A stretch of 31,521 nt of DNA from a virus, in the IMG/VR virus record IMGVR_UViG_3300034418_003720, positions 1 to 31,521 of that record; one strand, written 5' to 3'. The notes under the pieces were generated by a model. That model made no database searches. It worked only from the letters and a program-made list of their open reading frames with translations, and had not been told where the DNA came from. The position numbers were made by a program, and so were the translations under genes. Shown piece after piece: positions 1-31,521 of the stretch. The first letter of the stretch is position 1. Every line of letters begins with the position of its first letter.

Positions 1-449
1 GTTGACACTTGCAGCAGGAAGTACATACGGTTGTACTTCGTACCCCGAAGCCTCCAAGTCAGCCTGCACTTCCTCGAAAACCAACCCGTCCGACCAATTA
101 ACAAGTCCGAGAACATTCTCGCCCACAACCCATGTCGGTTGAATTTCTTGTACTGCTCTAAGCATCTCAGGCCAGAGGTGTCTGTCATCTTCTTTTCCAA
201 GTCGCTGACCTGCGTTTGAGTAAGGTTGACACGGAAACCCACCGGAGAGGATGTCGATTCGTCCTCTGTAAATATTGAAATCTGTTGTGATGATGTTTTC
301 ATGTGATATTGATTTTGGCCAGTAGTAATTTAGGACTTTTCGTCCGAACTCGTTCATTTCGCAATGGAATACATTCTCCCATCCCATCCATTCGGCAGCT
401 AGATCAAAGCCACCAACTAAATTCCAGAGAATAAAGAGCCATGCGTCAT
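1..449 (-). CDS. dcm: DNA cytosine-5 methyltransferase, N-terminal part, frameshifted and cut by window edge
   Basis: This is the catalytic half of a C5-cytosine methyltransferase, which methylates phage DNA, probably against host restriction. The ATG at 449 begins MTHGSLFSGI, the usual Dcm motif I start, but a TAG follows at 419-417. The rest of motif I (GGFDLAAEWMG) lies in the -1 frame, which stays open to position 1. Visible motifs are GGFPCQPYS with the catalytic Cys (motif IV) and GENVLGL (motif VI). The reading runs off the window in frame after PAASVN, exactly where the family continues with a PHRRDRVW-like stretch. The other half is at 31004-31521. The frameshift may be a sequencing error, a real lesion or recoding; no other stop was found in the 420 bases read. 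Confidence 0.85.
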
Positions 450-17996: not shown

Positions 17997-20609
17997 TTAA
18001 AGATCTGCTGATTGTTGAACTCTTACTGTTTGTTGATTGATTCTATTAATGTCTGAAACTCTGACAACTGGCTGCATTTCTGCAATTCTGTCTCCTAGTT
18101 GTGCTATCTGAGACTCCAATACTGCGTTCTGATTGCTGCTTGCTGACCTTGCTGCAAATGTTGGAGATGCAATTCCACCGCTTGCCATGTACGCTCCTGG
18201 AACAAGTGCTTTGCCTCCTCCGAGTTGATTGAGAATAGATGCTTGCTGTCTGAGATGTGGGTCTTGATATACTCCTTTGGTTAGAATGATCTCATTTCCT
18301 TCCATCTCATAGCCTCCATGTCCTGCAACCGTGAACGGAATACCTCCTTGAGCGTGTGATGGTCCTTGTGCAACTCCACCATCAGCGAATTTCTCTTGCT
18401 TCATTTTGGAGACATTCGCAAAACCAAATGCCAAAGCTGCTGCTGCTGCAATCGGTCCGAGATAAGGACCAATAATCGGAGTTGCTGATGCTGATGAGTA
18501 GGCAGATATGGCCGCCTGTAAAGTTTGAACAATTGCTGCTGCAACCTGTAACTCGTGAGCCTCTTTTTTGGCTCTCTTTGTCATTGCATTTATCTCAGCG
18601 TCTGTCTTTCCTGCTGCTTTCGCTTGTGCTTCAATTGCGCTGATATTGTCCTCTGCCTGTTGTTTCAGCCCATCAACAATATTGCTGATCACACCAAGAC
18701 CTCCCTGTGCTGCTCCGAGTGCTTCTCTCTCTTGAGACTTTCTCGTATCTGCAAGTTTGACCGCATTCTGCTCCAGAAGTTCAGTCTTTTTATTGTCGAG
18801 TTCTACTATCTGCGCATCAACCTCTAGTTTATCTTGTACGAGTTGCGCTCTTCTCTCCTCATCAACAACACCAAGAGCCTCCGTTGATGCTTGATATTGC
18901 ATTATCTGCAAATCCAATTCCTGCTGCTTTGCCTCTGCTAGATCACGCTCAATCTGGAGGATAGTTGCAGCTCTTACTTGCTCATCCTGTATGGATATTT
19001 GAGCCTTTAGTTTTGCTTCCGTTGCGTAATCTTCGAGCGTCTTTAGTCTATCGTTGAGAATTGCATCCTGCTCATCTCTGTGAATTTCTTTCAACTCTTG
19101 AGATAGGTATGTTTGAATAGACTTCTCTGTCTCTCCTGCTGCTCTTAACTCATTAGCCTTATTGAACGCGTCCTCCTTCCTCTTCTGAATATCTGATAGC
19201 TGTTCGCGTCTGAAATCTTCCCGAATCTTTGCTCTTTTTGCCTCTGCTTCTTCCTCTGCTTTGATCTGTGCCTCTGTGAGTTTTCGCTTCTCTGCTTCAA
19301 TAGCTTTATATTTGGCAAGGTCTTGCTGTCTTATCGTGTTCAGTTTATTCTGCAAGGTTGTCTGCATCTCAAATGACTCCATTCGAATAGCCGCCAATGC
19401 TTTCTCTGCCTCTGCTTGTCGGTCTAAGTCTTCGGCCAATGATTCCCCTTGCTCATTCTGTGCCTTGATAATATCAAAACGCTCCTGTGCTAAACGTACT
19501 TGTTCATCCATCAAACGCTTTTCAATTTCAATAGCTTTAACGGCTGCAGCCTCTCTTTCTTGAAGTGTTTTAGTTGTGTCTTCAGCGTCCTTGTTCAGCT
19601 CCTTGATAGTTGCCCGTGAATTTGCGCGTTCAACACTTAGTTTTCGTTCAGCGTCTGTTAATTCTTGAAGTCTCTTGGTCAATTCTTTAGCCTCTCTTGT
19701 TTCATTGGCAAGCTCCTCACCGATACCTGAAACAGACTCCTTCGCTAGGTCTGCCGCCTTTGCGAAGTTTCCAAGCCTAAGTTGGTTCAATGCTGCCCCG
19801 AACTTTGCAAACCTATCAACTACAACAGATACAGCCGCGCCAACCTGAGACATTACACGAGCCAAAGCCTCAGAACCTTCTTTGGTTTTGGTTAGGAACG
19901 ATACAACTGAGCCAAGAACAACTAAGAAAGCACCAAGACCAGTAGCTATCAATGCCAACTTTAAAGCGCCAAGACCAGTAACTGTTGCTCCTATTGATGC
20001 GTTCTGTGCTTTTGTAGCTGTAATGGTCTGCTTAACGCCATCGGAAAACGTTTCTAGCTGACTGATTACATTGCCGAGATTGACGCCCATTACATTAATC
20101 TTCCCTGCAACACTTTTCACAGCCTCCTCATAATTACCAACGTTCCTGCGATTGTCACCTACTGCCTTTTCATTGGCCTTCAGTTTATCGGTAATGGTCT
20201 TGATGGTTGCGCCAAGCTCTTTACCCTGACTGCTATTCTCACGCTCTGATTCAGATAGACTGTTGTATTGCTTAGTCAGAAGAGAAAGCCTTGCTCTGAG
20301 TTGTTCGTTTGAGCCTTTAGCCGCATCAACAACCGTTTTGTTGTTGGCGTATTCCTTATTTGAGTCTCTAAGCGATTTAGAGACCTCAGTCATTTGAATT
20401 TTCAACGCTGACTGCCTCTTTGCGTTTTCGTCTGCGCTGATTGCTCCAATCTTGTAAAGTGCGTTAGCTTCCTTCTGTTGGGTCTTTAGGTCGTTGAGTG
20501 CTTGAGTATAGGCTGCTGACTGTTTCTGAGCCTCTGCCATAGCAGCAGAAGCAGCACGAATGTCCTCCGCTTTGATGTCAATATCAACTACAATTGTTTT
20601 CTCAGCCAT
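17997..20609 (-). CDS. Tail tape measure protein
   Basis: An 870-residue protein, by far the longest coiled-coil protein here. Residues 1-200 and 300-650 are heptad-rich. There are hydrophobic segments at about 205-245 (LKLALIATGLGAFLVVLG) and about 705-730 (PYLGPIAAAAALAFGFANV). The C-terminal FADGGVAQGPSHAQGGIPF and YEMEGNEIILTKGVY stretches are characteristic of tape measure C-termini. It fixes tail length; at about 1.5 angstrom per residue a tail of roughly 130 nm is expected. No sheath gene was seen, so a flexible siphovirus tail is likely. Confidence 0.88.
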   Translation of the reverse strand: MAEKTIVVDIDIKAEDIRAASAAMAEAQKQSAAYTQALNDLKTQQKEANALYKIGAISADENAKRQSALKIQMTEVSKSLRDSNKEYANNKTVVDAAKGSNEQLRARLSLLTKQYNSLSESERENSSQGKELGATIKTITDKLKANEKAVGDNRRNVGNYEEAVKSVAGKINVMGVNLGNVISQLETFSDGVKQTITATKAQNASIGATVTGLGALKLALIATGLGAFLVVLGSVVSFLTKTKEGSEALARVMSQVGAAVSVVVDRFAKFGAALNQLRLGNFAKAADLAKESVSGIGEELANETREAKELTKRLQELTDAERKLSVERANSRATIKELNKDAEDTTKTLQEREAAAVKAIEIEKRLMDEQVRLAQERFDIIKAQNEQGESLAEDLDRQAEAEKALAAIRMESFEMQTTLQNKLNTIRQQDLAKYKAIEAEKRKLTEAQIKAEEEAEAKRAKIREDFRREQLSDIQKRKEDAFNKANELRAAGETEKSIQTYLSQELKEIHRDEQDAILNDRLKTLEDYATEAKLKAQISIQDEQVRAATILQIERDLAEAKQQELDLQIMQYQASTEALGVVDEERRAQLVQDKLEVDAQIVELDNKKTELLEQNAVKLADTRKSQEREALGAAQGGLGVISNIVDGLKQQAEDNISAIEAQAKAAGKTDAEINAMTKRAKKEAHELQVAAAIVQTLQAAISAYSSASATPIIGPYLGPIAAAAALAFGFANVSKMKQEKFADGGVAQGPSHAQGGIPFTVAGHGGYEMEGNEIILTKGVYQDPHLRQQASILNQLGGGKALVPGAYMASGGIASPTFAARSASSNQNAVLESQIAQLGDRIAEMQPVVRVSDINRINQQTVRVQQSADL

Positions 20610-25598: not shown

Positions 25599-25753
25599 TT
25601 GTTCGCTAGTATGTATTCAGCTTTAAAACTCTTCCAATAAGATCCAGACATTGTTTTGCCATAGATTTGTAGCTCTTCAGAAATCACCATGTATGGCGTA
25701 TCATCGTCCATTGCTTCAATCTCATCGAATAAGTATTTCACGTGATCGCTCAT
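25595..25753 (-). CDS. Hypothetical small protein, 52 aa
   Basis: MSDHVKYLFDEIEAMDDDTP, then YMVISEELQIYGKTMSGSYW, then a closing basic helix. It is linked by ATGA at both ends, to the SEC-C gene upstream and the tail terminator-like gene downstream. That double coupling supports it as a real gene rather than a chance ORF. The function is unknown. Confidence 0.55.
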   Translation of the reverse strand: MSDHVKYLFDEIEAMDDDTPYMVISEELQIYGKTMSGSYWKSFKAEYILANK

Positions 25754-25929
25754 ATCTTCCGTCTGTAAATCCGCTCAACTCTCGCTCCTTTGCCTTGCTT
25801 CTTTATGCAGCAATGCTTGAACTTGATTCCAGAGCCACAGGCACAAGACTCGTTTCTCTGCGCTTTCTGAATGACTTTGCGCTCCAGGACATCAACCATA
25901 TTGAAATCTTTTAACGTGTGGTTACTCAT
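25750..25929 (-). CDS. SEC-C motif zinc-binding protein, 59 aa
   Basis: A basic protein with the SEC-C zinc motif near its middle: CACGSGIKFKHCC at 29-41, the C-x-C-x8-C-C pattern, plus preceding RNES. The same motif ends SecA and various small proteins and binds zinc. The protein has no other known domain. It is chained by ATGA to the frameshifted gene upstream and the 52-residue gene downstream. That chain supports the -1 frame of the upstream gene, since only that frame ends at the shared ATGA. The function here is unknown. Confidence 0.65.
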   Translation of the reverse strand: MSNHTLKDFNMVDVLERKVIQKAQRNESCACGSGIKFKHCCIKKQGKGARVERIYRRKI

Positions 25930-26644
25930 GGCTTGTTGTTTTGATTGACGAACTCATTGTACTTCCTGAGATTCTCGGCATATTCACTCGTTGTCTTGTC
26001 AAGTAGTAACTTGGTATAGATGACGTTTGCCTCTTTCTGAAGTATCTCATCATACTTCGTTGGATCTCCTTTTGCAAGTGCGTCAAGTGTCGCAAACCAT
26101 GAGAAGCTCTGAATCTTCTCAATACCTGCCGCGATCTCGTTGTCATCTGCCGTTGCGTTGTAAAGGTCGCTCCATCGCTCGGACCACTCATTGAACTGCC
26201 GAAAAAAAAATCCCAGTATGCAAGAGCCTCCGGAACTCTCATTCCTTTGATGTCAACTCCTGAGTATGATTTGATGATCAGTTGTGCAGCAGCTATCTGA
26301 GGCAACTCCAATTCCGTAACTCTCTTAAACTCTTGCTCAGCATCAATCAGTTTCTGCCATGTATCTGTATCAATTTGAACTTTCACAAAGTCAACAGGTA
26401 GACTCTCCATCTTGATCTCATCATTCCAGAAGAATGAGCATTGAGTTTCGATGAATTTGAAATCAGTCTCAGACATTGCATCTAGTATTTTTCTCGGAAT
26501 ACCCGTCAACGCTTCAAGAACTGCTGTGAGTTCTCCGTCTGCTTGTAGTGCTTCGATGTAGTCTGTCCATTGAACGTCCTCCCATGATTGAGGAATCCTC
26601 TTCTGATGAGGCTTGTCGTTGATGTTGACTGTTATCGAGTACAT
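25926..26644 (-). CDS. Tail assembly chaperone-like protein made through a -1 frameshift
   Basis: The zero-frame protein begins MYSITVNINDKPHQKRIPQS and proceeds through WEDVQWTDYIEALQADGEL and LTGIPRKILDAM, a pattern seen in tail chaperone-like proteins. At residue 148 it meets T9 (26210-26202). In the -1 frame the protein continues RQFNEWSERWSDLYNATADD and ends NEFVNQNNKP at a TGA in an ATGA overlap with the SEC-C gene, 239 residues in all. The zero frame stays open to 25922 but reads Ser/Arg/Thr-rich and unnatural. It is either a programmed shift or a missing T in the homopolymer. Confidence 0.6.
26202..26210 (-). other. Homopolymer T9, possible -1 frameshift site
   Basis: On the minus strand the zero frame reads GAT TTT TTT TTC. 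This contains T TTT TTT and T TTT TTC, both of the X XXY YYZ form that permits slippage by one base. Ten Ts would give the fused frame without slippage, so a sequencing artefact must be excluded. Confidence 0.6.
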
Positions 26645-26682: not shown

Positions 26683-27897
26683 TCAGCCAAATGTACGCGC
26701 TCTAATCTTTTTAGGCTTGTCAATCTTCAGCATCATCTCCAGATAACGCGCTGCATCAATCAAATGATTCCAAGCATCAATTGGCTTATTAATCTCGTTT
26801 CCATCTTTATCCTTTGCCCATGTGTAATTTTCAAGCTCCTTCTTGAGATTGGTTGAGCGTTTGGTTATCAAGAACGGTTTCTCCTGCATCAATCCGATAC
26901 CGTACATGATCGAGTCTGCTCCTTTGGTTACAGGTTTAACTGTCAATCCACTCTTGCAGAGTTCGTCAATACTCTTAGGATCTGCACTATCAGCGTAACC
27001 AACATCACGTTTTGATATGTCGTTTGACTTGATCAGAGAAGCATGATCTCCGTTGCTCAATCCTGTTTGATAGATTACCTCGTCATAAATTCGTTGACCG
27101 TTGTACTCATATCCGATGACCGTTGTCGTTGGGTCGTTCGTATAACCAAAGTCAACACCATATCCAACTCTCTTTGCATCTGGAGGAATGGAGTCGATGA
27201 TTGACCAATTGGAAAAGACAACGCCTTGCAGACTTCCTATGTTGCCGAGTCCGTAAACCTCAAAGAGATTTGCCCAGTAAGAATTGACAGGCTCAAGTGC
27301 TTCCTTTCTGTTTGGGTCGTATGGTACACCATATCCAAGAACATGGTAATTCAGAATCTCGTTGCGCTCGTTATCATCCAACATCTCGTTGTCCTCATAA
27401 GTGAGTTGGAGGAAGTCGCAATCTTCACGGCCAATGACATCCTGGTCAATGAAAAATGGTGCATCCGGATTGTAATCACAAATGACCTGCTTTGCTCTTG
27501 ATGCAACTTGTCGATATGACTCAGCATCGCATTTATTTACCTCGTTGAAATAGGCAATGTCAGAACGCAATCCCTTACCAACATCTGATTTATCCAATCC
27601 GATAAACTTGATAAATGAGCCGTTTGGAAACCTGTATAGTGTTCCTGCTAGGAACTTTGAATCATTGTAAATGCCGAATGACTTCATAATCTTTACAAAG
27701 TCCTTGATTACGGTCAATCGCATCTTTGTCAGCTCAGACGAGATGATCAGAATCTCCTTGTCTGGTTTGGATGCTGCGTGATTGATGAGCAGAATAAGAA
27801 TTGAGAATGTCTTGGATGAACCTTGACCTCCTCTGATTACCTTGATTCGCTTCTTGAGGCTTGCAATCTTACGGAGTGCTGTTGTCTGAGAAATCAT
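26683..27897 (-). CDS. terL: Terminase large subunit
   Basis: A 404-residue packaging motor. The ATPase part has Walker A RGGQGSSKT at 22-30 and Walker B with catalytic Glu in IAYFNE at 114-119. The nuclease part has Asp249 in YGVDFGYTNDPTTTV, Asp303 in YADSADPKS, and Asp374/Asp381 in the DAWNHLIDAARYLEMM ending. It resembles the PBSX/phage T4-like headful or cos terminases of Gram-positive and Bacteroidota phages. The start overlaps terS by ATGA. It translocates DNA through the portal and cuts the concatemer. Confidence 0.93.
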   Translation of the reverse strand: MISQTTALRKIASLKKRIKVIRGGQGSSKTFSILILLINHAASKPDKEILIISSELTKMRLTVIKDFVKIMKSFGIYNDSKFLAGTLYRFPNGSFIKFIGLDKSDVGKGLRSDIAYFNEVNKCDAESYRQVASRAKQVICDYNPDAPFFIDQDVIGREDCDFLQLTYEDNEMLDDNERNEILNYHVLGYGVPYDPNRKEALEPVNSYWANLFEVYGLGNIGSLQGVVFSNWSIIDSIPPDAKRVGYGVDFGYTNDPTTTVIGYEYNGQRIYDEVIYQTGLSNGDHASLIKSNDISKRDVGYADSADPKSIDELCKSGLTVKPVTKGADSIMYGIGLMQEKPFLITKRSTNLKKELENYTWAKDKDGNEINKPIDAWNHLIDAARYLEMMLKIDKPKKIRARTFG

Positions 27898-31008: not shown

Positions 31009-31521
31009 GGTTTTTATTGGTCAGATTTTCGTACTCCTGGATTGATTGGAATATCTGATAAACAACCTGAGGAACTATTGCGTTTCCATAGGCTTTGATG
31101 CTTTCTCTTCTCCATTTTGGAAAGGTAATTCCGTCCAATCTGGAGGAAATCCCATCATCTCCGCCACAAATTGGGGATTGAGTTGGAAATTCATTCCATC
31201 GATTTGCCTCATCTTGTTTCCCGAACCTTCCCACTCCGTCAATGTTCCTCCCGATTTCTCGTTGCCTGCTGATGGTGTCGGAAGAATCCCCATTGCCAGA
31301 TAATTCTCCAGGTACATTGCTCTTTTCATTCCTCCGTACTTCTCCTTCCGTTTCAACGTCTTCTCTTCGTCTGTTGCTCTGCTCTGCGCCATCGGTGTTG
31401 GGAGTAGTCCGTTCATTTGTCTCCATTGAATATTTGCTTCCAGGTGTGAAATCGCTTTTTTGTGTCCTTGCCGTTTCGCTCTCGTTTCGTAACCTTCCTC
31501 TCCTCCCACTTTTGGAGTTGG
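31004..31521 (-). CDS. dcm: DNA cytosine-5 methyltransferase, C-terminal part
   Basis: This is the other half of dcm, cut by the window edge and read from offset 2 at 31521. It starts NSKSGRRGRLRNESETA, which is how Dcm continues after the PHRRDRVW-like stretch missing here. It carries FPTQSPICGGDDGISSRLDG, the conserved region after the target-recognition domain, and IKAYGNAIVPQVVYQIFQSI, which is motif X. About 171 residues are visible. A second, overlapping minus-strand frame (31075-31521) encodes a different family-like sequence. Together with 1-449 it should make one full enzyme apart from the early frameshift. Confidence 0.85.
   Translation of the reverse strand, partial: NSKSGRRGRLRNESETARTQKSDFTPGSKYSMETNERTTPNTDGAEQSNRRREDVETEGEVRRNEKSNVPGELSGNGDSSDTISRQREIGRNIDGVGRFGKQDEANRWNEFPTQSPICGGDDGISSRLDGITFPKWRRESIKAYGNAIVPQVVYQIFQSIQEYENLTNKNL

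Follow-up and report, generated by a model that had tools for sequence, protein, structure and literature searches.

Immediately downstream of the large terminase gene, a viral record of 31,521 nt (IMG/VR record IMGVR_UViG_3300034418_003720; the whole of this stretch is hereafter the window) carries a gene that appears to continue in two different frames beyond a run of nine T's. Is this run a site of programmed recoding and, if so, at what level does the shift occur and what might the products do? A sequence-only reading had proposed a -1 frameshift at T9 in a tail-chaperone-like gene, with the -1 frame continuing as a normal domain up to an ATGA overlap with a SEC-C gene. The layout of the locus (Table 1) agrees with this proposal, the -1 domain comprising 92 residues and the N-terminal part 147.

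Table 1. Positions of the two-frame gene, its parts and its neighbours in the window.
Feature	Coordinates	Strand	Remarks
Zero-frame ORF	26644..25922	-	240 aa; starts right after the large terminase gene
N-terminal part, zero frame	26204..26644	-	147 aa before the slip at the T tract; TAC-like N-domain; homologous to the wider family by profile comparison (E 1.7e-8)
T9 slip site (candidate), GGGA-T9-CGG	26202..26210	-	Zero frame GAT TTT TTT TTC; T9 conserved in L002, L003, L006, L007, L017 and L018
C-terminal part, -1 frame	25926..26204	-	92 codons plus TGA (25928-25926); dN/dS mostly 0.05-0.18 in computable pairs; C-part profile homology, E 2.8e-7
Zero-frame tail past the tract	25922..26203	-	93 codons plus stop (25924-25922); open, sequence unconstrained
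SEC-C zinc-motif protein	25750..25929	-	59 aa; Pfam PF02810, 1.1e-7
Terminase large subunit	26683..27897	-	Immediately upstream; Pfam Terminase_3C 6.3e-14, Terminase_3 8.5e-10
Probable tape measure protein	17997..20609	-	~5.3 kb downstream (~5 kb in the sequence-only reading); phrog_20660 tape measure, 4.4e-6

The -1 frame opens 42 nt before T9, is open across the tract and is devoid of ATG codons; its stop shares the ATGA overlap with the SEC-C start (25929), and the zero-frame stop follows closely, 4 nt past the -1 stop. No other A or T run in the window reaches nine, and T9 provides two overlapping in-phase heptamers, T TTT TTT and T TTT TTC. A small SEC-C protein overlapping the end of the recoded gene is also present in relatives (L006, 5278-5455; L007, from 4201). 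From 28322 down to 9937 the order of genes is terminase, chaperone-like gene, tail genes, tape measure, a ClpP-like protease (PF00574, 1.2e-11), and candidate capsid and portal, the tail genes thus preceding the head genes. Both ends of the window (1-387 and 31075-31521) fall inside one cytosine-C5 methyltransferase-like ORF that reads in frame once the ends are joined: the record is therefore probably a nearly complete, circularly permuted genome.

Comparison with relatives shows that all the close ones identified share T9 and the -1 frame. Two further IMG/VR contigs (L002 and L003) have the same T9 with substitutions in the flanks, and four loci whose N-parts are progressively less similar to that of the window (L006, 81% identity; L007, 80%; L017, 62%; L018, 45%) have T9 in the same phase, followed by homologous -1 parts. 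An alignment scan led to L009 (31% identical over part of N), which carries T10, again with a -1 continuation; L009 was considered as a continuous T10 homologue and rejected, because it too requires a -1 shift. Through L009 we reached two cultured phages of Nonlabens, P12024S and P12024L (P12024S/L), in which the homologous gene follows the terminase and contains T9. When the window and L009 families were compared as profiles, N and C separately, both comparisons were significant (E 1.7e-8 and 2.8e-7, respectively). A scan with N-parts – blind to the T tract – returned 40 loci, and 40/40 proved to have T9 or T10 plus an open -1 frame.

Further copies reside in Bacteroidota genomes (Spirosoma arboris and others), in phage-like gene neighbourhoods, and T9 persists in bacterial genome loci of 56-63% GC. 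Seven such genome loci (L115, L116 and L126-L130) came to light later and played no part in building the C-part HMM; each carries T9, in phase 2, and a -1 frame that is matched by this HMM (E 4e-5 to 3e-23). Clustering at 60% identity gives 32 lineages, Bacteroidota genomes included, and on the evidence of these homologues the family extends across phages and prophages from many Bacteroidota, with little sequence in common otherwise. In tblastn searches of phage records, the N-part of the window, the L018 fusion, L065 and L063 found no match, and L009 and L050 matched only P12024S/L. The pattern TAYTGGGAT9C, used as a probe, also matched ten unrelated loci, which were rejected; a group of unrelated viral contigs (L011, L012, L014-L016, L019-L021 and L023) shares the conserved sequence TATCTA[CT]TGGGAT9CTGTGTCGTA, which is not homologous to the recoded gene. 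A literature search, its scope excluding subscription journals, produced no paper on poly-T recoding in tail genes of Bacteroidota phages.

Homopolymers are prone to error and a tenth T would join the two frames, but the prospect that the actual genome has T10 and one continuous ORF – an outcome against which the sequence-only reading had cautioned – is vanishingly small, and assembly error can be regarded as refuted by conservation: T9 is repeated in assemblies that are independent of one another and differ in their flanks, in relatives of 45-81% identity, in the cultured phages P12024S/L, and in bacterial genomes with a locus GC of up to 63%.

Which of the two frames is shaped by selection as protein can be seen from substitutions in the overlap. 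In most pairs for which it was computable, dN/dS of the -1 frame is 0.05-0.18 (0.32 in the near-identical pair of the window and L003, which differ at four positions), that of the zero frame is 0.84-1.63, and the differences sit on third positions of the -1 frame. The constrained protein is therefore the -1 part, which is under purifying selection. Sister loci L072 and L073 demonstrate that run length can differ between close neighbors, but that a frameshift mutation was fixed in one lineage of a decaying gene is scarcely credible given purifying selection on the -1 part and the conservation of the same shift across all lineages; for the window clade the dN/dS values refute decay.

The zero frame behaves differently. 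Past the slip site it is open for a mean of 51 codons, whereas shuffling codons while preserving the -1 protein gives an expectation of 28 (41 lineages; Wilcoxon p 4e-8, an optimistic value given that lineages are related), and in 6/6 members of the window clade it reaches, or nearly reaches, the end of the -1 part without a stop. The suggestion that two almost equally long products are possible holds for this clade, the opening of the zero frame being beyond chance. Residues of the zero-frame tail are not conserved as protein: because the frame nevertheless stays open, we infer selection for continued translation – either coupling to the next gene or avoidance of early release – and not for sequence. 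Early closing of the +1 frame is only weakly significant (p 0.024) and carries no weight in the argument. At L024, L053, L056, L058 and L061, both frames look constrained over the first 10 codons after the run (synonymous divergence of the -1 frame is reduced, and the zero frame has pN 0.14 vs pS 0.43), a signature that could reflect local dual coding or an RNA signal just past the slip site.

Homologues with an uninterrupted frame and no tract had been named in the sequence-only reading as grounds for abandoning the shift. Such homologues do exist: 23 more distant sequences, forming one clade in the tree, encode N and C in one continuous frame devoid of the T tract. They are missed by the C-part HMM; homology was settled by full-length profile comparison, in which the continuous-clade profile and the fused-family profile align over 253 columns across the junction (E 1.4e-35). 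Another continuous member, L072, the sister of T9-bearing L073, reads N and C in one frame through T7. Since a sister clade encodes both parts in one continuous frame, the N-C fusion is, on profile evidence, one protein – a single ancestral two-domain protein – and since the tract-free homologues belong to a distant clade, with the tract kept by all close relatives, they clarify the fusion and do not refute the shift. Within Spirosoma's family a homologue is found in 34/200 genomes (~1 in 6), mostly in the continuous form and in several cases as multiple copies (L131-L151, L085-L091); five continuous loci that were read more widely lie upstream of an ORF of 1000-1330 residues.

The continuous clade also bears on the possibility that N and C are two separate proteins, the -1 part being translated alone from an internal start. 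This is how genes 38 and 39 of P12024S/L (phrog_32199 and phrog_38404) are annotated: their N and C parts are homologous to those described here and they share T9 and the -1 overlap directly after the terminase, but they are listed as two separate hypothetical proteins, the recoding being unrecognised. Some -1 parts do have an ATG (P12024S_39 starts at one internal to its -1 part), and in PHROGs N and C form separate families. Set against this are the lack of any ATG in the -1 ORF of the window, its absence both before the run and from the first 25 codons in 31/41 lineages, the single ORF of the continuous clade, and N and C parts that everywhere overlap at the T tract; separate translation is thus very improbable. 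At L073 and L088, moreover, the -1-frame stop directly abuts the run, and the shift must therefore fall inside the run. With tract and -1 frame conserved (including the 40 loci found blind to the tract and the seven held-out loci), the -1 frame under selection, and N and C in a single ORF in relatives, the proposed -1 shift at T9 is strongly supported: recoding to an N-C fusion is, as far as comparative data can tell, almost certain.

We propose that -1 recoding is programmed at the T9 tract. The 147-residue N-part would in most products be followed by the zero-frame tail, and in a fraction be joined to the 92-residue -1 domain; if lambda G/GT and P2 E/E+E' are a guide, the two forms, N and the N-C fusion, would probably work jointly in tail assembly, as chaperones connecting the tape measure with the tail tube protein. 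The production of both forms, their ratio, the chaperone role and the level of the slip are inferred.

As to function, the neighbours of the gene are homologues of terminase, tail and tape-measure genes, and in prophages it lies among tail genes, in varied order. Chaperones of the lambda G/GT type bind tape measure and tail tube proteins, do not occur in virions and are required for tails. Tail chaperones typically show such a two-form -1 layout, with ~150 + 90 residues, and the family has what would be needed for N and N-C forms of the lambda G/GT type: a conserved -1 overlap and a conserved slip site. PF10109 (Phage_TAC_7, the family of P2 E and Mu 41) gives weak matches to 5/18 N-parts (best E 0.0014), all below the curated cut-off of 25 bits (17.5 bits for L009, no match for the window); phrog_166, a 'tail protein', is matched by 8/18 N-parts. 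For the N and C parts of the window, nothing above threshold was found in Pfam, PHROGs or NCBIfam, and hhalign of P2 gpE against the family returned a probability of 5%, that is, no detectable homology. Nor does the gene lie between the major tail protein and tape measure genes; in the window it directly follows terL.

This location beside the terminase and at a distance from the tape measure, together with the lack of any family above threshold, would suit a protein that is recoded as described but is no tail assembly chaperone – a head-tail joining or packaging accessory protein, for example. We consider such a function unlikely in view of the two-form layout of ~150 + 90 residues, the weak matches to PF10109 and the tail PHROG, and the tail-gene neighbours in prophages. 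The tail-chaperone label of the sequence-only reading thus stands as plausible, its basis being sub-threshold PF10109 matches plus architecture; what did not hold up is any closer assignment, given scores below the PF10109 cut-off, no detectable homology to P2 gpE and a place beside the terminase. The gene is built like a tail assembly chaperone pair but reaches the threshold of no named chaperone family. A tail-chaperone-like role is likely, and the joint proposition of -1 recoding and such a role, the level of the slip left open, is probable.

Known systems provide points of comparison. Like P2 E/E+E' (T6G; PF10109), the gene would specify a short N-protein and a -1 fusion at a T-run near the end of N, among phage tail genes, and PF10109 is the sole chaperone family matched here, if weakly. 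Unlike the P2 gene, it has T9/T10 in place of T6-T7, longer N and C parts, the terminase and not the tape measure as its neighbour, and a zero frame open for 16-103 codons past the slip; direct sequence homology was not found. Lambda G/GT and the conserved TAC frameshift of tailed phages share with it -1 recoding that yields an N form and an N-C form (PMC5009743), but the lambda slip is ribosomal, gene order differs, and Pfam gave no lambda G match here.

At which level, then, does the slip occur? RNA-polymerase slippage on runs of 9A or 9T is known in bacteria, nine being the length of A/T run that has been studied; examples are Thermus dnaX (A9) and Shigella mxiE, with its U run (PMC1088944, PMC5009743). 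These genes and spa13 resemble the present case in having an A or T homopolymer inside a coding region, and in mxiE and spa13 a one-base insertion joins two frames, as proposed here; unlike the present gene they are cellular or virulence-plasmid genes, and slippage at T9 is a candidate put forward from sequence (PMC5009743, PMC1088944). As dnaX shows, homologues can use either polymerase or ribosome slippage (PMC5009743, PMC1088944).

Run lengths across the 32 lineages are informative in this regard: T9 occurs in all three phases (0, 1 and 2), several lineages have T10 and two have T7 (L077/L078 and L082, both in phase 2 and at two separate places on the tree); T8 and T11 never occur. An in-frame T TTT TTT needs a minimum of 7 T's in phase 2, 8 in phase 1 and 9 in phase 0. 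Wherever the frame is interrupted, the lineage has this heptamer in phase, which is automatic for any T9. In the 14 phase-2 lineages both free end positions – the first T, a third position of a zero-frame codon, and the ninth, the third position of the -1 Phe codon, each free under one or other single-heptamer model – are always T (joint P 5e-7 and 5e-5, based on local codon use with lineages treated as independent, and hence overstated in significance). A run of at least nine is kept whatever the codon phase, as is expected of transcriptional slippage sites, save for T7 in two lineages. A search for downstream RNA structure (60-nt windows, 39 lineages, stem-loops only) showed no enrichment (mean z 0.10). 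Given the run-length pattern and the lack of downstream structure, RNA-polymerase slippage appears at least as likely as ribosomal slippage.

A purely ribosomal slip of the lambda G/GT and P2 E/E+E' kind, with tRNA-Phe slipping in tandem on T TTT TTT / T TTT TTC, is nonetheless a serious contender that falls somewhat short of an even chance, and it concerns only the level of the slip, not recoding itself. It has precedent, in that all studied tail-chaperone recoding is ribosomal (PMC5009743) and the slip site of P2 is T6G, with T7G/T7C in P2 relatives (PMC3931495); the heptamer is exactly in phase in the T7 lineages L077, L078 and L082, and synonymous divergence is somewhat lower in the first 10 codons past the run. 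Length alone does not exclude the ribosome, the extra T's of T9 making two overlapping in-phase heptamers. Harder to reconcile with ribosomal slippage are the retention of T9/T10 whatever the phase, although T7 or T8 would suffice (T8 being never seen), and the missing stem-loop signal. In Bacteroidia ribosomes, furthermore, the anti-SD is occluded, so SD-stimulated slippage should be poor, although prfB frameshifting persists in Bacteroidia (PMC8710568); the upstream GGAGG of the window is absent at L007. The description of T TTT TTT C as a classical slippery site needs a small correction, the in-phase heptamers being T TTT TTT and T TTT TTC; the ribosomal slip that it implies is one candidate, and a T9-10 run kept whatever its phase is matched at least as well by polymerase slippage.

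For lineages with T9 or T10 the balance tips slightly towards an extra U inserted by RNA polymerase on the T9 template. The T7 lineages (L082; L077/L078) need either ribosomal slippage or slippage on a short run, and for these we lean towards ribosomal -1 slippage on T TTT TTT, which possibly operates in the window as well. A fuller scenario may be offered tentatively, its chances being rather less than even: a Bacteroidota-wide chaperone family would set the ratio of its two forms via polymerase slippage on T9/T10, a T7 ribosomal site or a continuous frame having taken over in some lineages, with the zero frame kept open by selection and both products of the window clade ending at the start of the next gene.

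Taken together, these comparisons point to a real poly-T recoding site, widely conserved and unannotated, within a family of probable tail chaperones in Bacteroidota phages. Databases list the N and C halves as unrelated genes; the recoded family identified here, in phages and prophages of Bacteroidota, would explain the paired 'hypothetical' ORFs found after terminase. With T9 in three phases, T10, T7 and continuous forms, it also offers a natural comparison of transcriptional and ribosomal control of what may be a phage tail chaperone – and does so in hosts whose ribosomes barely use Shine-Dalgarno pairing.
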